Assembly: GCF_000379525.1 (NCBI RefSeq)
Contig: NZ_KB902494.1
Span: forward strand, 472 to 52,188
Direction of reading: 5' to 3'
Length of the DNA: 51,717 nucleotides
Source: Lamprocystis purpurea DSM 4197
GTDB lineage: Bacteria > Pseudomonadota > Gammaproteobacteria > Chromatiales > Chromatiaceae
Shown here: in pieces, positions 18,804-27,400 of the stretch
How the letters are laid out: every line of letters begins with the position of its first letter
Position numbering within the stretch: the stretch's first letter is position 1
Position numbers and translations under genes: made by a program
The notes under the pieces: generated by a model
The model's input: the letters and a program-made list of their open reading frames with translations, nothing else
The model's database searches: none
Told to the model about the DNA's origin: nothing

Positions 18804-18831
18804 AAAAAAAGCCCCCGGATTGACCGGGGGC
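18804..18831 (-). terminator. intrinsic terminator for the cytochrome cluster
   Basis: On the minus strand GCCCCCGG, TCAAT, CCGGGGGC and seven T residues form a standard terminator, 157 bases after the stop of the decaheme gene and before the P-loop gene. Confidence 0.85.
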
Positions 18832-18878
18832 TTATGTGATTTCCGGAACACCGGATACCGCCAACCATCGGCTCGGAT

Positions 18879-18937
18879 GTAGGTGCGACTTCAGTCGCAC
18901 CGATTCGGACGCAGGTGCGACTGAAGTCGCACCTACA
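18879..18937. repeat. paired palindromic (REP-like) repeats
   Basis: GTAGGTGCGACTTCAGTCGC and, 30 bases on, GCAGGTGCGACTGAAGTCGC are two near-identical palindromes in opposite orientation within the 3' region of the decaheme gene. They could form two small hairpins or one large one. Together with the terminator they fill the gap 18681-18987. Confidence 0.6.
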
Positions 18938-18987: not shown

Positions 18988-21582
18988 TTAGTTCCGACTC
19001 AGACTCAAGGCACGCTCCGGCCGCGTGAAGTTGTGGCAGGCAGCGCAGTCCTTCTTCTTGTCCTGCACGTGACGGTTGTGCACCGAGGCGAAGGCGCGGC
19101 CCTCGGTTTTGTTGCTGTGGCACTGACCACAGATGGCATCCAAATTGCCGTTGAGTGTGGTCACGCGGGTGCCGATGACAGCGCTCGGAGCGGTGCGCAA
19201 ACCATAGCCCAGATCCTTCATGACCATCCGCGCCGGTCCGCCGGTGAGCGCGGCATGGCAGGAACCGCAGCCCGCGTTCTCGCCGCCCAGCGCGTTGTCC
19301 TCGGGCTCGACCCCGTGGTTGATGGTCTGGTACGTAAACACCGGAACCGTGGTCGTGCGGGGCGGCATTTCCAGCGCGCCGGGGACACCACCGCAGACCG
19401 TGCTGGTCGCCGCGTTCGGTTCATCCAAACCCAGACCCACCGCGACCGCGCGGCAGAAACTGCCGGTGCGGAAGAACTCGAAGGTGGAGTGTCCGACGAA
19501 GCTATTGGTGCTGTCGTTACGTGCCAGCTTGCCCCAGTGCTTCTTCATCGGGTAGAGCTTGGCTGTACTGCTCGCCACGTCCCCGTTGGGCATTCCCAAG
19601 GCGTAGGCACGCGCCCCGGGAGCAAGGCCGCGATAAAAGTTCGCCGCGAGCGTCGTGTCCAGGGGCACCGTCGGAATGCCGGTGAGCGACTCCTCCAGGT
19701 ACACCACTTCGGATTTGCCGTCGAACCAGGTGTAGCTGGGAATCAGCGCGGCGCTCCCCAGGCCGCCCTTATCCTCGCGGGGCAGCCAGCCGCCGCGCCC
19801 GTTACAGGCCGAATCGGACGGATGCGGGTCCTGCCAGTCACGGGCGATCTCGGTACCGACCGCCGCCTTGGCGTAGGACGGGATGTGACAGGTCTGGCAG
19901 GCAACTTTCATGGCGTGCTTGTCTTTGCTGGAGCCGCTGGTGGCACTGTAGTCGCCATGGGGGCGGCTCGAGTGACAACCGCCGGTCTCGCAGGTGAAGC
20001 GCTCGGGCACGTCGTTGGCCCGCAGGTCGAGACCGCGCCCGCGGACCCGGTGGCTTTCACCATTGGCGCCGGTCGCGTTGTGACAATCAGAACAGGTCAG
20101 GTCGGCGCCCGCCGGGCTCATATGCAGGTCCACCGTGACCGTTGGATTGATGTTCTCCTTCGACAGATCGCCGCGCTTGGCACCATCGGCCCCGGCCGCC
20201 CCGGCATGGCAGTTGAGGCAGGACTGGCGGGTAGTGGCATGGACGTTTTGCGCCGCCGCCAGGGTGGTCAGCGGCATCGGAGTCATGGGGACCGCCGCGG
20301 GGAGTGTGTCGCTGCCGGCCGGTTTGAACAGGAAATCGCCGGCCAGGCTAACGTTCGGGATACCCTGGAACCCGGTGCGTACCACGGTGTCGCCATCGGA
20401 GCGAACCAGGTTGCCCGCGGCGTCCTCGGTCAGATTGAGCAGACTGAAGCTGCTGAAGCCCTGCCCACCGGCGGTCCAGTCCGGGAAGCGTTTATAGACT
20501 TCCTGATGGCACATGAGACAGTCGATGTTCGCCAGTTGGACATTGGCCTGCGCGGACCCGACGGGCAAGTCTTCAAAGAGCGACTGCGCCATGGGGAACC
20601 GCCCATTGCCCACATGGCAACCGGCGCAGGTGAAGCGCGGGGAGTTCTCGTGGGTGCCGCAGTAGGTATTCATGCCGGTCGCCACCAAGTCGCCCGCCGC
20701 CTTGGCCGGCCGCTCGCCGGCCGCCGCGAAGTTGGTCGGAATATTGGTGACGTTGGGGAAGGCGCCGCCCTGCTGGTAGTGAACCGAGCCGTGCATATCA
20801 CGCGCCTCGCCTTCATGGCAGGCGACACACACCGCGGGTCCGGTATAGGCCGTGATGCTGCAATGCTCCGCGATCGGCGCGGTGCAGGCAACCGGTGCCG
20901 TGATGGTCGCGGTGGTGGTGGACACGGCCGAGGTCCCGCCCCCGTTGTCCGTGACTCTGAGGGAAACGGTATAGGTGCCGGCCGCCGAGTAAACATGGCT
21001 GGGATTGGCCTGGGTGCTGCTGGTGTTGTCACCAAAGGTCCAGGCGTAAGCGGCGATGGTGCCGTCCGGATCGCTGGAGCCGGCGCTGCTGAAGCTCACG
21101 GCGATGCCCGTGGTGCCGCTGTAGGGGCCATTGGCATTGGCGGTCGGAGCGATATTACTCGGCGCCTTGGGTGCACAGGTGGACGGTGCGCTGCTGACAT
21201 TGCGCTCGGCTGTCTGCCCGTCCGCCTGGATGACACGCACCCGGCACGGAACGGGGCTTGGTTGCCTGGCGGCGATGTTCCAGGCGCCGGTCGAGGTGGT
21301 GGTGACGTTACCCAAGATCTGGGCTGGGTTGTAGGCGTTGACCAGCGTCACTCGCGTCCGTGGCGTGCCCACCCCAATGACCCGCACCAAGGTATTTTGG
21401 TTACTCCATGCCGCGCTGCTGATGCTGAGAACGGCGGCGGCCGCGGTCTGCATCCAGACCGGAGCAAGCCCCGCCAGGCACAGCGCCGCAATCAGGAGAC
21501 TCAGGCTCCATGGGCGCCACCGGGATCGCTGCTGTACTGTTCGTGGTGTGCGCTGGACGCGCGACGGTTTGGGGGTCGTCAT
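18988..21582 (-). CDS. secreted decaheme cytochrome c with a PKD domain
   Basis: This 864-residue protein starts behind GAGAGGAG at ATG 21582. After an Arg-rich leader it has a signal sequence (SLSLLIAALCLAGLAPVWMQ, then TAAAA), then a beta-rich region to about residue 145. A PKD domain follows at about 147-230 (PYSGTTGIAVSFSSAGSSDP, YAWTFGDNTSSTQ). The rest carries ten heme-binding motifs: CVACH, CAGCH, CLMCH, CLNCH, CSDCH, CETGGCH, CQTCH, CGSCH, CGQCH and CAACH. One of these (CETGGCH) has four residues between the cysteines. The stretch KVACQTCHIPSYAKA resembles octaheme tetrathionate reductase-type cytochromes. It is last in a cluster with a sensor kinase, an octaheme cytochrome and a flavin reductase. 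It is probably periplasmic or on the cell surface; the substrate is unknown. Confidence 0.85.
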   Translation of the reverse strand: MTTPKPSRVQRTPRTVQQRSRWRPWSLSLLIAALCLAGLAPVWMQTAAAAVLSISSAAWSNQNTLVRVIGVGTPRTRVTLVNAYNPAQILGNVTTTSTGAWNIAARQPSPVPCRVRVIQADGQTAERNVSSAPSTCAPKAPSNIAPTANANGPYSGTTGIAVSFSSAGSSDPDGTIAAYAWTFGDNTSSTQANPSHVYSAAGTYTVSLRVTDNGGGTSAVSTTTATITAPVACTAPIAEHCSITAYTGPAVCVACHEGEARDMHGSVHYQQGGAFPNVTNIPTNFAAAGERPAKAAGDLVATGMNTYCGTHENSPRFTCAGCHVGNGRFPMAQSLFEDLPVGSAQANVQLANIDCLMCHQEVYKRFPDWTAGGQGFSSFSLLNLTEDAAGNLVRSDGDTVVRTGFQGIPNVSLAGDFLFKPAGSDTLPAAVPMTPMPLTTLAAAQNVHATTRQSCLNCHAGAAGADGAKRGDLSKENINPTVTVDLHMSPAGADLTCSDCHNATGANGESHRVRGRGLDLRANDVPERFTCETGGCHSSRPHGDYSATSGSSKDKHAMKVACQTCHIPSYAKAAVGTEIARDWQDPHPSDSACNGRGGWLPREDKGGLGSAALIPSYTWFDGKSEVVYLEESLTGIPTVPLDTTLAANFYRGLAPGARAYALGMPNGDVASSTAKLYPMKKHWGKLARNDSTNSFVGHSTFEFFRTGSFCRAVAVGLGLDEPNAATSTVCGGVPGALEMPPRTTTVPVFTYQTINHGVEPEDNALGGENAGCGSCHAALTGGPARMVMKDLGYGLRTAPSAVIGTRVTTLNGNLDAICGQCHSNKTEGRAFASVHNRHVQDKKKDCAACHNFTRPERALSLSRN

Positions 21583-21719
21583 GGGGGACTCCTCTCATTC
21601 AGGTGCGGGCTGGAACCTCCGTGGATCACCGGACAAGTCCTCCTGAAGATGAGCCCAACAAGACCAGCGGTCGGTGTCGGGCAAGGCCGGCTGTCGCACC
21701 AACGCTACCACCAGGCGCC

Positions 21720-23114
21720 TTAAGAGATCCTTAAGCCCAACGGAGCATGTGGTTTGACTCCGGCAGCCGCGGGGAAGATCAGATCCACGCGCAGCCCCGC
21801 CCCGTCCTCGCCCTCGCCCAAGGCGATCTCGATACCGTAACGGTCACAGATACGCCGCACGATGGCGAGCCCGAGCCCCGCGCCAGGCTCGGGCTGGCCG
21901 GCGGGCCGGTAGAAGCGGTCGAAGACCCGTTGCCGGTCGCCTTCCGGGATACCGGGACCGGAGTCAGTCACCCGCAACAGCAGGTGCTCGCGCTGCCGGA
22001 GGACCGCAACCCGAACCCGGCCCCCGGGCGGCGTGTATTTGATCCCGTTTTCTATCAGGTTGCCGACCAGCACCTCCAGTACCGTCGCCGGGACCGGTAC
22101 CACACAGGGATCGCCGTCCGGCAACACGGCGGTCAAGCCGATCGTCCGCGCACCTGCGGCGGTCTGTCGGTCGGTCACAGCCCGAGCCGCGGCTTTGGCA
22201 AGCGACGCGAAACCGCGCCCACTCACGCGATGAACGTCATGTTCGTCGTCCTGGAGGCGCGCCAGCGTCAAGAGTTGCGCGATCAGATGGGTTGCGCGAT
22301 CCACGCCCTGGATCAGTTGCTCGAGCGCCGCGCTGCGCTCATCCGGTGCGGTGCTGCGCTGAGCGATCTGGGCATAGGTGCGGATGATAGTAAACGGTGT
22401 ACGCAACTCGTGTGAGGCATCGGCGGCAAAGCGCCGCTCGGTGGCCAGCGTCTGATGGAGACGTTCCATCAAACCGTTCAGGGCCTCGGTCAGCGGTCGA
22501 ATCTCCGTCGGGACACTCTGCCCATCGATCGGTGCCAGGCGCTCGGCGGAACACTGTCCGATGTCGCGGGCAACCCGCTGCAACGGGCGCAGGCCATCGC
22601 TCACCGCCCACCAGATAAGGAACACCGTCAAGGGCAGCGACCACAGAATGGGCTGCAATGCGTGGATCGTCAGAAACCGGATCATCTCCTGGCGGATCGT
22701 ATAATTCTGAGCGACGAACACGACCTCTCCGGGCAGGGCGCCGGGAAGACCAAAAACCCGCCACTGAGCCCCACCAAGGGACTGATCCGAGAACCCGGTG
22801 GTCGGCGCCAGGGGCTGCGATGGCGCGGCACCAAAACTGGCGATGAGTCGATCCCCTTGCCAGCGCTGGAAACTCAACTTGAACTCATAGGGATGACCCA
22901 CGGGTGACAGTTTTTGGGGGGCAGCAGCGGCGACGGACAAAGGGCCGACCAGGGTCAGTTCATGCAGCACCCGGGCCGTCTGCGCCAACTGGGCATCCAG
23001 GAGTTCCGCGATCTCATGACCCGATCGATCAAGCGAAATCAGGGCCACCGCGACCCAGACCATGACCCAGATGCCCAGCAGCGCAAGCAGCAGCCGTCGG
23101 CGAATCGACGTCAT
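21720..23114 (-). CDS. sensor histidine kinase (QseC/EnvZ type)
   Basis: This 464-residue membrane kinase has one membrane segment at about residues 9-27 (LLALLGIWVMVWVAVALISL), a periplasmic region of about 120 residues, and a second segment near 155-172 (LWSLPLTVFLIWWAV). A HAMP-like linker follows, then the phospho-acceptor histidine in FAADASHELRTPFTIIRTYA. The ATPase boxes are N (GNLIENGIKYTPPGGRV), G1 (VTDSGPGIPEGDR) and G2 (GAGLGLAIVRRICD). The start overlaps the stop of the response-regulator gene (ATGA), so the two are coupled. Its signal is unknown. Placed between a regulator and the decaheme gene, it may sense redox state or the electron acceptor. Confidence 0.92.
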   Translation of the reverse strand: MTSIRRRLLLALLGIWVMVWVAVALISLDRSGHEIAELLDAQLAQTARVLHELTLVGPLSVAAAAPQKLSPVGHPYEFKLSFQRWQGDRLIASFGAAPSQPLAPTTGFSDQSLGGAQWRVFGLPGALPGEVVFVAQNYTIRQEMIRFLTIHALQPILWSLPLTVFLIWWAVSDGLRPLQRVARDIGQCSAERLAPIDGQSVPTEIRPLTEALNGLMERLHQTLATERRFAADASHELRTPFTIIRTYAQIAQRSTAPDERSAALEQLIQGVDRATHLIAQLLTLARLQDDEHDVHRVSGRGFASLAKAAARAVTDRQTAAGARTIGLTAVLPDGDPCVVPVPATVLEVLVGNLIENGIKYTPPGGRVRVAVLRQREHLLLRVTDSGPGIPEGDRQRVFDRFYRPAGQPEPGAGLGLAIVRRICDRYGIEIALGEGEDGAGLRVDLIFPAAAGVKPHAPLGLRIS

Positions 23115-23779
23115 GACCCTGGGATGCAGACCAGTTGGTAGCCAACCCCGCGCACCGTGAGAATTCGCTCCCGGCCGAGTTTGCGCCTCAGGTGATGGAT
23201 ATGAACTTCCAGCGAGTTGCTCTCGACTTCGCCCTGCCAGCCGCGGGCCGCGGCCTCAAGTCGGGCGCGCGTGACCACGCGGTCGGGGTTTGCGATCAGG
23301 GCTTCCAACAGCGTGTACTCCATCGGGGAAAGCGACAGCGCCTGCCCACCCAAGGTCGCCGCGCGCTGAGAGGTATCCAGGGCCAGGTCCCCGACCTGCA
23401 TCACCGGCGAGGGATGACCACGACCACGGCGAGCGAGCGCCCGCAACCGCGCGCTCAGTTCGTCGAGATCGAACGGCTTGACCAGATAGTCATCGGCCCC
23501 CGCATCCAGGCCGGAGACCTTGTCGGCGGTAGCATCGCGGGCGGTGAGGATCAGCACGGGCAGGACCGAGCCCGCGCGTCGGATCTCACGCAACAGCGAG
23601 AGCCCGTCGCGACCGGGCAGACCCAGGTCCAGGATCAGCAGGTCGAAGTGCTCCAGACTCAGAGCATGCAGGGCAGGCTCCGCGGCCCGCACCCAATCGG
23701 CCGCAATGCCGTCTTGGGCCAGCCCGGTGCGCAGCCCCGCCCCCAACAGCGGATCATCTTCGACGATCAGGACGCGCAT
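23111..23779 (-). CDS. OmpR/QseB-family response regulator
   Basis: This 222-residue protein has a receiver domain (MRVLIVEDDPLLGAGLRTGL, acceptor aspartate in LLILDLGLPGRDG, then LTARDA and YLVKPFDLDE). A winged-helix output domain follows (LSPMEYTLLEALIANPDRVV, then EVHIHHLRRKLGRERILTVR and GVGYQLV). This is the usual QseB/PmrA layout. It is encoded four bases into the kinase gene and 104 bases downstream of the EF-hand gene. The pair probably controls this cytochrome cluster, an inference from position only. I did not find a convincing direct-repeat operator. Confidence 0.93.
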   Translation of the reverse strand: MRVLIVEDDPLLGAGLRTGLAQDGIAADWVRAAEPALHALSLEHFDLLILDLGLPGRDGLSLLREIRRAGSVLPVLILTARDATADKVSGLDAGADDYLVKPFDLDELSARLRALARRGRGHPSPVMQVGDLALDTSQRAATLGGQALSLSPMEYTLLEALIANPDRVVTRARLEAAARGWQGEVESNSLEVHIHHLRRKLGRERILTVRGVGYQLVCIPGS

Positions 23780-23883
23780 TGCAGTTGGAGGGAATCACCC
23801 GCCAGATGGGCAATGCGCGGTTCGGTCAGGCGTAACCGTCCACCCCATCGCGAACCACGGAACCGGCCAGGCGACGATCCCAT

Positions 23884-24543
23884 TCAACGCGGCGGCATCC
23901 CTTGCTGCCGATGCTGAGCTTGGGCCGCGGTGAACTCCTGGGGATCGACCCGACCGTCGCTGTTGCTGTCGATGGCGCCGAAGGTCGGGGCATTGGCCAG
24001 GTTACGCATCGCGTAGCCTTGTTGTGCCCGCTCCTGGATGCGCTTGCCCTTCGCCTCATTGAACTCCTGCTCGGTGAGGCTGCCGTCCCCGTTCAGGTCG
24101 TAGTCGGCGAAAGACGGCAGGTTGCGACCCATGCCGGGACCCATCCCCATGCCAGGCCCGCCCGCCCCCATGCCGGCGCCAGAGCCAGGACCCATGCCGG
24201 CGCCCGCCCCCGGCCCCATCCCGCGTCCCTGCATACGCGTCTGCTGGGCCTGGGCGAACTCATCCGGCATGAGTTTGCCGTCGCCATTCAGATCGAACTC
24301 CGCAAAGGAGGGTGCGTTGGCTGCCCCCCGCATCGGGGCACCAGCCGCCGCCCGCGCGGCCATACGCTGCGCGTGGGTCGTCTCAAACTCCTGCTGGGTG
24401 ACGACGCCATTGCCGTCCTGATCGAACGCCGGAAACGACATGGGGCCGCGTGGCGGCTGATTTGCCGTCTGTGCGTTCAGCAGCGGGGCCGCGGCTGCCA
24501 GGGTGAGGGTCAAAGTCAAGGTGCGGGTCAAGTACTTCATCAT
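23884..24543 (-). CDS. secreted EF-hand protein with four calcium loops
   Basis: This 219-residue protein has a signal peptide (TRTLTLTLTLAAAAPLLNAQ) and four EF-hand loops: DQDGNGVVTQQE near residues 41-52, DLNGDGKLMPDE, DLNGDGSLTEQE and DSNSDGRVDPQE. The first and second pairs are separated by a flexible Met/Gly-rich linker (GMGPGAGAGMGPGSG and similar repeats). It is expected to be periplasmic and to bind calcium. EF-hand proteins of this type are often next to two-component systems, as here, and may act as calcium buffers or sensors. ATG 24543 and the next codon, also ATG, are equally possible starts. Confidence 0.88.
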   Translation of the reverse strand: MMKYLTRTLTLTLTLAAAAPLLNAQTANQPPRGPMSFPAFDQDGNGVVTQQEFETTHAQRMAARAAAGAPMRGAANAPSFAEFDLNGDGKLMPDEFAQAQQTRMQGRGMGPGAGAGMGPGSGAGMGAGGPGMGMGPGMGRNLPSFADYDLNGDGSLTEQEFNEAKGKRIQERAQQGYAMRNLANAPTFGAIDSNSDGRVDPQEFTAAQAQHRQQGMPPR

Positions 24544-24574
24544 TCGCCTTCGTCAATCTCGTGGTGCATAGTCC

Positions 24575-24614
24575 GGGTGGCCGCTCGTGTCCGCTAAGCG
24601 GACAGGGGCCACCC
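24575..24614. terminator. nested hairpin between octaheme and EF-hand genes
   Basis: Outer arms GGGTGGCC (24575-24582) and GGCCACCC (24607-24614) enclose inner arms GTCCGCT and AGCGGAC. No T-run follows on either strand. It may be an attenuator or RNA-stabilising structure dividing the cluster into two expression levels, rather than a full terminator. Confidence 0.4.
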
Positions 24615-24714
24615 AAGGGTTCAAACTCACACTATAGAACCATAACGCTGGGGCCGTCCGTCGCCGATCTGCCGACGGCAAGGCGCCGGCGCCGGCACTC
24701 AGCGGACCAGCCGA

Positions 24715-25518
24715 TCAGTCGTCATCGTCGTCCTGCTCCCCGGAGTCGTGCTTCGCCCGTGCGTGTTCGTCCGCACGATCGTCGCCTTCGCCGGCATCCC
24801 GCCCTTCCCGACGCCCGTCGGCATGCTCAGCGTCCTCGGCATCGCCGCCCCGGTGGCACTCGACGCAGTTCTCGTAGTCACGGATATCCTCCTCCAGATG
24901 TTTCTCGCGAATGCCGGAACGGGTGTGCTCATGACAACCGTAGCAGGTATAACGACTGTAGTCGTTGCCGACATGGCAGGTATTACAGGCTGCCTCGTGG
25001 TCACCCGTGAGACTGAACAGGCCCTCGTGGTCGAAGGTCGCGGGGGTCCAGGCCGCTTGGCCATGGCACTGACCGCAGTTGCCGACGACGCCTTGATGCA
25101 TGCTGTCCAGCGGGGCCTGGTGACAGCCGCTGCACTGATCGCGGCGGGCGACTTTCAGCAGCCCATGGGAGAACCGACCGATGGGGTGAAAGACCTGCAC
25201 GCCCTTGTGATCACTGTGACAAGCGACACAGTCTTGCTCGGTCAAGTCCTGATGGAACGGGGGAAACTTCCGCTCGTCGGCGATCGACAGGCCCTTGGTG
25301 GTCACCAGGCCGATCTCAGTCGGCTGGTGGCACTTGACACACTGGCTGGGCGTGCTGCCGATGAAGGGCTGATGGCAGGCAAAGCAGTCGGTCGCAAAGG
25401 CCCGGTGGGCCGGCATGACCTGACCGGGCGCGACCAGGTGCTCAGGCCAAACCACCGCAATCAGCAACAGGACCACCAGATTGGCGGCAACCAGAAAGAA
25501 GACGGCCCGCTTATTCAT
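24715..25518 (-). CDS. membrane-anchored octaheme cytochrome c
   Basis: The start at ATG 25518 overlaps the stop of the upstream gene (ATGA) and gives 267 residues. A single N-terminal membrane helix (AVFFLVAANLVVLLLIAVVW) anchors a periplasmic domain. That domain has eight CxxCH motifs: CFACH, CVKCH, CVACH, CSGCH, CGQCH, CNTCH, CYGCH and CVECH. The last 45 residues are extremely charged and end in DDDDD, an unusual acidic/basic tail without hemes. NapC/NirT- and c7-type proteins with this layout carry electrons from the membrane to periplasmic reductases. With the cytochrome b-like and flavin proteins encoded before it, it probably forms the membrane segment of an electron pathway. Confidence 0.88.
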   Translation of the reverse strand: MNKRAVFFLVAANLVVLLLIAVVWPEHLVAPGQVMPAHRAFATDCFACHQPFIGSTPSQCVKCHQPTEIGLVTTKGLSIADERKFPPFHQDLTEQDCVACHSDHKGVQVFHPIGRFSHGLLKVARRDQCSGCHQAPLDSMHQGVVGNCGQCHGQAAWTPATFDHEGLFSLTGDHEAACNTCHVGNDYSRYTCYGCHEHTRSGIREKHLEEDIRDYENCVECHRGGDAEDAEHADGRREGRDAGEGDDRADEHARAKHDSGEQDDDDD

Positions 25519-26093
25519 TGCCATTGCCAGAAAAGCAAGATGCTGAGAATGTGCGCAAGCCCCAAGACGCCGAAGGCCAGCGTGATGGGGAAATGCACCG
25601 TCCGCCATTGCTTCATGACGTCCACCGTCACCGCATCCCAAAAGACTTCCCGGTCAACCTCGGCCGCACTATCCCCGTGCCGGGTATGGAACTCCCGTTT
25701 TTCGCTCAATTGGCGGCGTGAGCGGCCGAGCAGATACTGTCCGGTCATTCCGCTGGCCAGGGTGACCAGCATGGCCAGCAGCGCCAACCAGGGCAGGATC
25801 GCGTAGACATGGACACCGGCGTGGACCAGGATCATCAACGCCCCCACCCAGGTCAATACCTCGTGCAGTTGCAGCAGCGTCTTCGGGTTACCGGAGTGGA
25901 TCAGCTTGCGCTTGCGCATGGAATAGAAAAACGACAGCAGGATCAGGATGGTTCCGGGGATGCCCAGATAACGGCCGATCCAATAGAGGCCGTAAGCGTG
26001 CAATAAGGCATCGGTGATCGCGGTCGCGACGATCAGCGACCCGAACATCAGAACGAACGGCAGGACTTCCTTACGAAGAATGGAACGATTCAT
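25515..26093 (-). CDS. cytochrome b-like integral membrane protein
   Basis: This 192-residue protein has about five hydrophobic segments (PFVLMFGSLIVATAITDALL, IPGTILILLSFFY, LTWVGALMILVHAGVHVYAI, LLAMLVTLASGMTG, ITLAFGVLGLAHILSILLFW). Histidines sit where b-heme ligands would be expected (QLHEVLTW, LVHAGVHVY, TVHFPIT, LAHILS). I chose ATG 26093 (MNRSILRKEVLPF) rather than an upstream start in a non-conserved frame. The family is not certain. It lies eight bases downstream of a flavin/[2Fe-2S] reductase gene and overlaps the octaheme gene, so all three are surely one operon. Its likely role is to pass electrons across the membrane. Confidence 0.75.
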   Translation of the reverse strand: MNRSILRKEVLPFVLMFGSLIVATAITDALLHAYGLYWIGRYLGIPGTILILLSFFYSMRKRKLIHSGNPKTLLQLHEVLTWVGALMILVHAGVHVYAILPWLALLAMLVTLASGMTGQYLLGRSRRQLSEKREFHTRHGDSAAEVDREVFWDAVTVDVMKQWRTVHFPITLAFGVLGLAHILSILLFWQWQ

Positions 26094-26101
26094 CTTGGAC
26101 T

Positions 26102-27400
26102 CTATAAAGCCAGGGTTAGATCGGTCTTCGGGGTGGAAATGCACAGCAGACAATGGCCTGGCTTGAGATCCGCATCCGGCTGCTGCCGATACTCCACCTC
26201 ACCGGCCTCGATCCGCGTCTCACAGGTGCCGCAACTGCCGGCCCGGCAACCCGAGTCGACGGAGATGCCTTGGCTTTCGGCGAGGTCCAGCAGCGAGCCG
26301 GCGCAACCGTCCCAGGCGACAGTCTTTCCGGAACCGCTGAAGCGCACGGCGACCGGGTCGGTCACCACCACCGTATTCGGCACCTGACGCTGGTTCAAAG
26401 ATGCCGGTCCGAACGATTCGTAGTGGATGTCCTCCGAAGCCACGCCCTGGACCTGAAGGGCGGGCACCAAGGACTCCATCATCGCCGGCGGGCCGCAGAC
26501 ATAAAATTCATGGCGGCCAAACCGCAGGGTCCGCCGCAGCAGCTCGAGGTTGACGAAGCCCTGATGCTGGTAATCCGTGCCCAAGCGATCGTCAGGCCGG
26601 GGCTCCGAATAGCACACCTGGAGATGAACATTCGGGTGGGCCTTGCTCAGCCCTTCCAGATGTTCCTTCATGATGTGCTCGGCGCCATGACGAACCCCAT
26701 AAAACAGCCAGACCTCGCGTGGATCGGCCCGATGGGTCAAGGTGCTCAGGATGCAGAGCAGCGGCGTAATGCCAATTCCGCCGCCGATCAGCACGATCGG
26801 AACAGCGCCGTCATCGGTCAGATAGAAATGACCGGCCGGGGCTCGCGCCCAAAGCGTGCCGCCTTCCTGGAGTTGGTCATGAAGGGAGTTCGAAACGACG
26901 CCGGGCGGCAAGTCCGATCGACCCGGGGGCGACGGGACCCGCTTGACCGAGATGCGGTAGCAATCAGCGCGCGGCCGATCCGACAATGAATAGCACCGCA
27001 CTAGGGTCTTGGGCGAACCGCCGGCAGGGTCAGGCACCTCCAGTCGGAAGGTGAGATACTGACCGGGCCGATAAGGCGTCAGAGTCCCACCGTCAGTGGG
27101 AACCAGGTAGAACGAACAAACGGCTCCGCATTCGTCCTCAACGGCGCGCCGCTCGATCCGGAACTCCCGATAGCCGGACCAGGCCGCAGGAGACACACCC
27201 GCCGCAACCAAGGCAGGTTCAGCTTCAGGAAGCTGCCTGGACAAGACCAGAGCCGGCCTGACCTCACCTCCAGCCGCCCCGCCTGACAGATTCAGTTGCT
27301 GAAGTCTGGCGCGCCGGCGCTGCCACCCGAACAGGCCGACGGCCGCGACCTGGGCCAGGATGGCCATGGTGATGAGCAGTACCAGCGTTGCGTTTGACAT
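26102..27400 (-). CDS. membrane-anchored FAD/NAD(P) and [2Fe-2S] oxidoreductase
   Basis: This 432-residue protein has one N-terminal membrane helix (ATLVLLITMAILAQVAAVGL). A ferredoxin-reductase-type flavin domain follows (YRPGQYLTFRLEV, RCYSLSDRPR), then a nicotinamide domain (IVLIGGGIGITPLLCILSTL, EFYVCGPPAMM). At the C-terminus is a plant-type [2Fe-2S] ferredoxin domain with CRAGSCGTC and a later CLLC. This order matches vanillate demethylase- or hmp-type reductases, but the anchor is unusual. It should oxidise NADH or NADPH at the cytoplasmic face and hand electrons to the cytochrome b-like protein encoded immediately after. It is the first gene of the cluster. Confidence 0.88.
   Translation of the reverse strand: MSNATLVLLITMAILAQVAAVGLFGWQRRRARLQQLNLSGGAAGGEVRPALVLSRQLPEAEPALVAAGVSPAAWSGYREFRIERRAVEDECGAVCSFYLVPTDGGTLTPYRPGQYLTFRLEVPDPAGGSPKTLVRCYSLSDRPRADCYRISVKRVPSPPGRSDLPPGVVSNSLHDQLQEGGTLWARAPAGHFYLTDDGAVPIVLIGGGIGITPLLCILSTLTHRADPREVWLFYGVRHGAEHIMKEHLEGLSKAHPNVHLQVCYSEPRPDDRLGTDYQHQGFVNLELLRRTLRFGRHEFYVCGPPAMMESLVPALQVQGVASEDIHYESFGPASLNQRQVPNTVVVTDPVAVRFSGSGKTVAWDGCAGSLLDLAESQGISVDSGCRAGSCGTCETRIEAGEVEYRQQPDADLKPGHCLLCISTPKTDLTLAL

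Follow-up and report, generated by a model that had tools for sequence, protein, structure and literature searches.

The locus and its genes

Seven genes for redox and signalling proteins occupy positions 18988–27400 of a 51,717-nucleotide stretch of the Lamprocystis purpurea DSM 4197 genome (contig NZ_KB902494.1, positions 472 to 52,188; hereafter, the window). All lie on the minus strand, in the order FNR, CYB, OHC, EF-hand protein, response regulator (RR), sensor kinase (HK) and decaheme cytochrome (Table 1). The first-pass annotation of the window had recorded this order together with the overlaps and motifs, and these hold: CYB and OHC, and likewise RR and HK, are joined by ATGA overlaps. 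FNR and CYB are 8 bases apart, and wider gaps separate OHC from the EF-hand gene (171 bases), the latter from RR (104 bases) and HK from the decaheme gene (137 bases). The first-pass annotation had further interpreted the whole as one NAD(P)H-to-periplasm electron conduit that ends in a dedicated decaheme cytochrome and has a two-component system of its own. Comparison with related genomes changes that picture, in that the seven genes look like two modules, each inherited as a separate set. Module 1, the FNR-CYB-OHC triad, probably is a transmembrane NAD(P)H:multiheme cytochrome c reductase, lying beside module 2, which would comprise a decaheme reductase of the octaheme tetrathionate reductase (OTR) kind with a QseBC-like regulatory pair of its own and no dependence on the triad.

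Table 1. Genes of the two modules and the hairpin beyond them, with positions in the window
Feature	Positions	Strand	Description
FNR	26102–27400	-	432 aa; FAD/NAD(P)/[2Fe-2S] reductase with N-terminal anchor; PF00175 and PF00111; module 1, input
CYB	25515–26093	-	192 aa; five-helix membrane protein, two b hemes proposed; module 1, core
OHC	24715–25518	-	Octaheme c-type cytochrome; eight CXXCH, N-terminal anchor helix, acidic C-terminal tail; module 1, output
EF-hand protein	23884–24543	-	EF-hand Pfam models; occasional companion of module 1
RR	23111–23779	-	OmpR-type response regulator, PmrA/QseB-like; module 2
HK	21720–23114	-	QseC-like sensor kinase; HisKA, HATPase_c and 2CSK_N; module 2
Decaheme	18988–21582	-	Exported; signal-like N terminus, PKD domain, divergent OTR-type heme region; module 2
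Terminator-like hairpin	18809–18833	-	10 base pairs followed by a T-run; 3' of the decaheme gene

Separate distribution of the two modules

The two modules were traced through a family sample of 194 genomes, many of which are drafts, so that absences near contig ends are uncertain. CYB matches above 200 bits mark 41 ‘CYB genomes’ (a looser tally of 56 takes in partial and distant hits), which stand in for carriers of the triad; the search did not locate FNR next to CYB at two loci (L043 and L044). A match above 400 bits defines the 27 ‘decaheme genomes’, weaker OTR-like matches being excluded (146 of the 194 have some match). Both proteins occur together in 13 genomes, with 28 of the 41 CYB genomes devoid of the decaheme and 14 of the 27 decaheme genomes devoid of CYB. 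On this distribution, a single, co-conserved seven-gene system was rejected, lack of co-conservation being among the outcomes that the first-pass annotation had named as refuting. Since 14 of the 27 decaheme genomes do without CYB, electrons must often reach the decaheme from some other donor, and a dedicated route to it from the triad is not supported. In a phylum-level sample, CYB was detected (E ≤ 1e-8) in 24 of 397 other genomes, once in a long form discussed below, and the decaheme (E ≤ 1e-60) in none of 248 other genomes.

Nor is the assignment of the regulators to the conduit supported. RR and HK lie directly upstream of the decaheme gene in all 12 closer loci (L181–L192; in pieces in L184), six of which belong to genomes without a CYB match (G114, G181, G165, G122, G137 and G004), and no other gene family is common to as many of these loci. 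Among 23 RR genes of at least 67% identity, the decaheme is adjacent, by coordinates, in 15 and the triad in five. Hence it is chiefly the decaheme to which the two-component system belongs. Two loci at contig edges (L193 and L194) are uninformative on upstream genes, and next to the more distant decaheme orthologs (L195–L200) the pair is not found upstream. With parts that recur across many genomes, neither module is arranged as it is by chance. The split also means that the triad and the decaheme are best treated as separate experimental subjects.

Conservation and joint inheritance of the triad

Gene order around CYB was assessed in 99 distinct loci, that is, those with enough flanking sequence and after removal of identical CYB DNA (the locus sets L031–L070 and L071–L150 overlap, and some places were counted twice before this removal); from the collection of named genomes, the best 80 of 484 CYB-related stretches were kept. 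An OHC gene follows CYB in all 99 loci, with eight heme motifs in 83, ten in 14 and twelve in two, and an FNR match is present upstream of CYB in 83. The ATGA overlap between CYB and OHC is retained in 72 of the 79 named loci scored, and the protein distances of FNR, CYB and OHC correlate with each other at 0.80–0.87 (63 loci). Given the correlated distances and the conserved gene order, we conclude that the three genes are co-inherited in most carriers. To judge by record titles, these carriers include magnetotactic lineages and Beggiatoa-type filaments as well as purple sulfur bacteria. EF-hand genes near the triad belong to two families, found in nine and five of 85 loci, respectively.

FNR combines an N-terminal hydrophobic helix with the motifs RxYS, GGGIGITP and CGPxxM and a Cx4Cx2C...C cluster; in the PDB, it matches flavohemoproteins best. 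All 65 FNR relatives compared have the Fe-S cysteines, 64 have RxYS and 61 CGPxxM. The predicted model of OHC (pLDDT 52) was too poor for a structure search. The acidic C-terminal tail of OHC (24715–24850) recurs in 77 named relatives, with 4–23 acidic residues, mostly 10 or more, among the last 40.

At E ≤ 0.01, CYB had no match in Pfam or NCBIfam, PF01794 of MsrQ-like proteins and ferric reductases included, and its assignment to a known family in these databases was accordingly rejected. A predicted structure of moderate quality (pLDDT 73.8) contains five long helices. Six histidines, H32, H77, H91, H95, H167 and H181, are invariant in all 59 aligned CYB proteins, and four of them form two His-X13-His pairs, H77/H91 in helix 3 (residues 70–94) and H167/H181 in helix 5 (residues 158–188). 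At the level of sequence, this four-His set is the di-heme pattern of NADPH oxidases (NOX). We infer that CYB carries a stacked pair of b hemes, which would receive electrons from FNR and give them up to OHC.

In one genome of the same genus (G107; L248:9231–9806), only short remnants of b561, FNR (37 aa) and CYB (39 aa) were found, in this order, adjoining a two-heme open reading frame (ORF) that resembles a peroxidase. These remnants represent decay of the triad.

The triad as a putative transmembrane reductase

The cofactors, donor specificity, direction of flow, partners and acceptors that we infer for the two modules can be arranged as follows. FNR, cytoplasmic and held by its N-terminal tether, would take hydride from NAD(P)H and release single electrons through FAD and the [2Fe-2S] cluster; CYB would pass them across the membrane via its two stacked b hemes, liganded by H77 and H91 in helix 3 and H167 and H181 in helix 5; and OHC, anchored beside CYB, would distribute them to heme proteins of the periplasm, which in many relatives are probably those of the SHP/diheme set described below. 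Outward flow would be downhill with respect to both redox and membrane potential, so that a reductant valve or a feed for periplasmic detoxification is possible. The decaheme would act as an OTR-kind reductase with a Lys-ligated active heme under control of the QseBC-like pair, and may draw on module 1 at this locus. The earlier notion of an NAD(P)H-to-periplasm conduit is, in this form, retained for the triad as a sequence-based proposal, without the decaheme as its dedicated terminus.

The quinone pool is usually regarded as the source of electrons for periplasmic multiheme cytochromes. Direct feeding from NAD(P)H, if true, would be an added input to periplasmic redox chemistry. Our literature search turned up no description of the FNR-CYB-OHC triad, which is apparently a widespread and conserved, as yet unnamed conduit of this type; the first-pass annotation had likewise recognized no named system, although for the seven genes taken as one.

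The triad can be placed, with due reserve, as a split transmembrane reductase of the NOX or MsrQ-like sort. A screen for bacterial NOX proteins, including SpNOX, relied on two His-X12/14-His motifs in helices three and five, the heme sites fed by an NAD(P)H- and FAD-binding domain (PMC5676040). CYB has two such motifs in separate helices; unlike NOX, it has five predicted helices instead of six, its reductase is encoded by a separate [2Fe-2S] protein gene rather than fused as a C-terminal FAD/NADPH domain, and a multiheme c partner appears to be obligate. NAD(P)H-linked MsrQ-like systems resemble the triad in combining a cytoplasmic NAD-binding part, a di-heme membrane protein and an extracytoplasmic redox protein, but employ an FMN-binding partner and a PF01794 membrane protein (PMC8238504), the family that CYB does not match.

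Company of the triad: the SHP operon

In many relatives, the triad adjoins genes for b561 (PF01292), SHP (DUF1924) and a diheme c (PF09626), with PepSY- and SK1-type regulators nearby. This neighbour set is the published SHP operon; the A. vinosum set as described there includes SHP, diheme c, cytochrome b, regulators, Czc genes, a peroxidase and two unnamed ORFs, but not the triad (PMC2909971). SHP is present in 39 of the 41 CYB genomes versus 80 of the other 153, and lies within 7 kb of CYB in 10. Thus, the commoner company of the triad is the SHP/diheme/b561 operon, not the decaheme. If the triad is a conduit, this suggests a second donor for the SHP operon.

In Thiocystis minor (L082/L046), SHP-type genes, triad, EF-hand gene, regulator pair and decaheme gene occur in a single stretch. 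Genes for SHP, diheme c and b561 are not found at the window locus and lie on another contig (C144) of the same genome; the decaheme gene is within ~10 kb of SHP in four of the 27 decaheme genomes (G114, G137, G147 and G031). The window arrangement may derive by rearrangement from a larger SHP/triad/decaheme cluster, of which it would be a piece.

The decaheme cytochrome

The decaheme has nine CXXCH motifs and one CX4CH motif. It matches TIGR04315 (octaheme tetrathionate reductase) at 1.6e-49 and 169.2 bits, below the curated cut-off of 375, and the Shewanella OTR (1sp3) at 1.1e-22; by these matches, it is a divergent relative of OTR, from which it differs in its ten heme motifs, PKD domain and single CX4CH site. 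N305, C308, D466 and K469, positions counted from the alignment, correspond to N61, C64, D150 and K153 of OTR, which we take to be its active-site residues, the active heme being Lys-ligated with Asn, Cys and Asp as neighbours. The Asn, Cys and Lys are retained in all 22 aligned decaheme proteins and the Asp in 21. This alignment omits the interrupted protein of L031 and the contig-edge pieces of L193 and L194, and the rows for L182 and L184 were shortened at the N terminus by ORF picking. Because the OTR-type residues are retained, a Lys-ligated active heme is likely in the decaheme as well. MmcA of Methanosarcina, an archaeal relative of the OTR family that differs in having seven hemes and an Rnf partner, acts as an electron conduit (PMC11024163), and a conduit role for the decaheme is therefore possible by analogy.

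The regulators score below the curated cut-offs for QseC (254.8 versus 475), QseB (223.1 versus 345) and PmrA (244.5 versus 330). In a near-identical relative (L031; contig C338 of G168), the decaheme gene is interrupted, in two pieces with a stop, which could be real or an assembly fault. Two of the more distant loci, both labelled by eye, have a b561-like gene directly before the decaheme ortholog (L196) or rnf-like genes near it (L197); these surroundings hint at other decaheme donors.

Alternative explanations

Several observations weigh against the interpretation given above. Concerning the separation of the modules, these lie adjacent in two genera, that of the window (window, L031 and L032) and that of Thiocystis minor (L046), which a strict two-module view leaves unexplained. 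As for the triad, an adjacent FNR match is missing in 16 of the 99 distinct loci, FNR is a mere fragment in at least three of the 83 loci with a match (L035, L036 and L060), and no common substitute was seen in the 17 FNR-less loci of the short CYB form (16 of them distinct), where a uniform replacement was accordingly rejected; since FNR is sometimes missing or fragmentary and has no common substitute, other electron input is possible. The strict glycine motif was found in 36 of the 65 FNR relatives only. The best match in a Foldseek search with CYB, the membrane domain of csNOX5 (5o0t), was not significant (E=0.35, TM 0.27), so that a fold proof of kinship with NOX was not obtained. A few other FNRs are partly aligned (e.g. 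those of L221 and L228).

Adjacency in two genera is what would be expected if the seven genes formed a single respiratory route, dedicated and regulated, that leads from NAD(P)H to a decaheme terminal reductase. CYB and the decaheme also co-occur above expectation (13 genomes, Fisher p=6e-4, in tests that treat related genomes as independent, which they are not), RR and HK adjoin the triad in the single-contig genome G132, which has no strong decaheme ortholog, and eight of the 23 close RR relatives have no adjacent decaheme. In a third genus (L039), the modules are 11.5 kb apart. We nevertheless regard such a route as unlikely in view of the many genomes that carry one module without the other, six of them having RR–HK–decaheme and no CYB. 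With respect to the triad itself, the missing FNR genes would fit a CYB that is quinol-fed like b561, with FNR as an optional helper, as would a sub-threshold DUF4405 match of a distant long form (L213); this appears quite improbable, considering that FNR is immediately upstream in most loci and that CYB, OHC and FNR distances vary in parallel. The NOX-like His pattern and the cation-diffusion-like genes in 14 of 85 triad loci (labelled by inspection and after the SHP paper rather than by family search) could instead point to a metal or oxygen reductase of the NOX or ferric-reductase type, with OHC as the final rather than an intermediate site. We consider this hardly likely as well, because a partner with 8–12 hemes in 99 of 99 loci would exceed the need of such an enzyme and CYB matches no Pfam family, ferric reductase included. 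Finally, NAD(P)+ might be reduced by electrons from periplasmic sulfur compounds or minerals that travel inward via OHC and CYB. Judged by record titles, sulfur oxidizers make up most of the named carriers, and the SHP-type genes of A. vinosum are strongly induced on pyrite (PMC11267869); yet the genome taken as A. vinosum (G124) has no CYB or OHC match, and inward movement would oppose the membrane potential with no coupling module in sight, which makes this direction very unlikely. Outward reduction by the triad, next to an independently inherited decaheme module, thus remains the preferred explanation.

Distant long forms of CYB

Distant, longer forms of CYB were detected at E-values of 1.2e-9 to 8.1e-16. 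The four histidines H77, H91, H167 and H181 are kept in 11 of 11 long forms, H32 and H95 are not, and one extra invariant His is peculiar to these proteins. Fourteen long-form loci (L208–L220 and L244) were fetched, each covering only ~3.3 kb. All 14 contain an ORF with 6–16 CXXCH motifs, and in seven the other flank of CYB has an ORF with a 4Fe-4S motif, on the opposite strand in six of the seven; in L213, its product is a 4Fe-4S and pyridine-nucleotide-disulphide oxidoreductase. Hence, the three-part design may recur with another flavoprotein.

A broader reading, which we put forward tentatively and which may or may not hold, is that proteobacteria have a large, as yet unnamed superfamily of modular wires from NAD(P)H to the periplasm, with FNR-CYB-OHC as one of its branches. 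Its members would share an invariant four-His di-heme core and a multiheme c partner (6–16 motifs), and would differ in interchangeable inputs (FAD/[2Fe-2S] reductase or 4Fe-4S pyridine-nucleotide flavoprotein) and outputs (SHP/diheme proteins, peroxidase or decaheme reductase). If so, these systems would offer a quinone-independent means to push cytoplasmic reductant onto periplasmic hemes.

Transcription signals and repeats

No sigma-70-type promoter match was found in a search of the locus, and no T-run terminator was found in the OHC/EF-hand, EF-hand/RR and HK/decaheme gaps. The terminator-like hairpin beyond the decaheme gene is a strong one, although such sites in the whole window number four, not above the shuffle mean of 5.9. 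Folding of the OHC/EF-hand gap is ordinary (z -1.3). A transcription boundary between the modules was consequently rejected, the gaps holding no T-run terminator and only a dispersed palindrome. This palindrome, GTCCGC-NNN-GCGGAC, has a copy inside the OHC/EF-hand gap (24589–24603) and seven others in the window (at 1792, 3587, 3628, 28712, 28793, 28834 and 41972). It occurs 196 times in the genome, compared to nine for the reversed control, frequently in pairs ~41 bases apart, and is a REP-like dispersed repeat. Between the decaheme stop codon and the terminator-like hairpin, an inverted repeat, gtgcgact...agtcgcac, is present twice (18880–18935).

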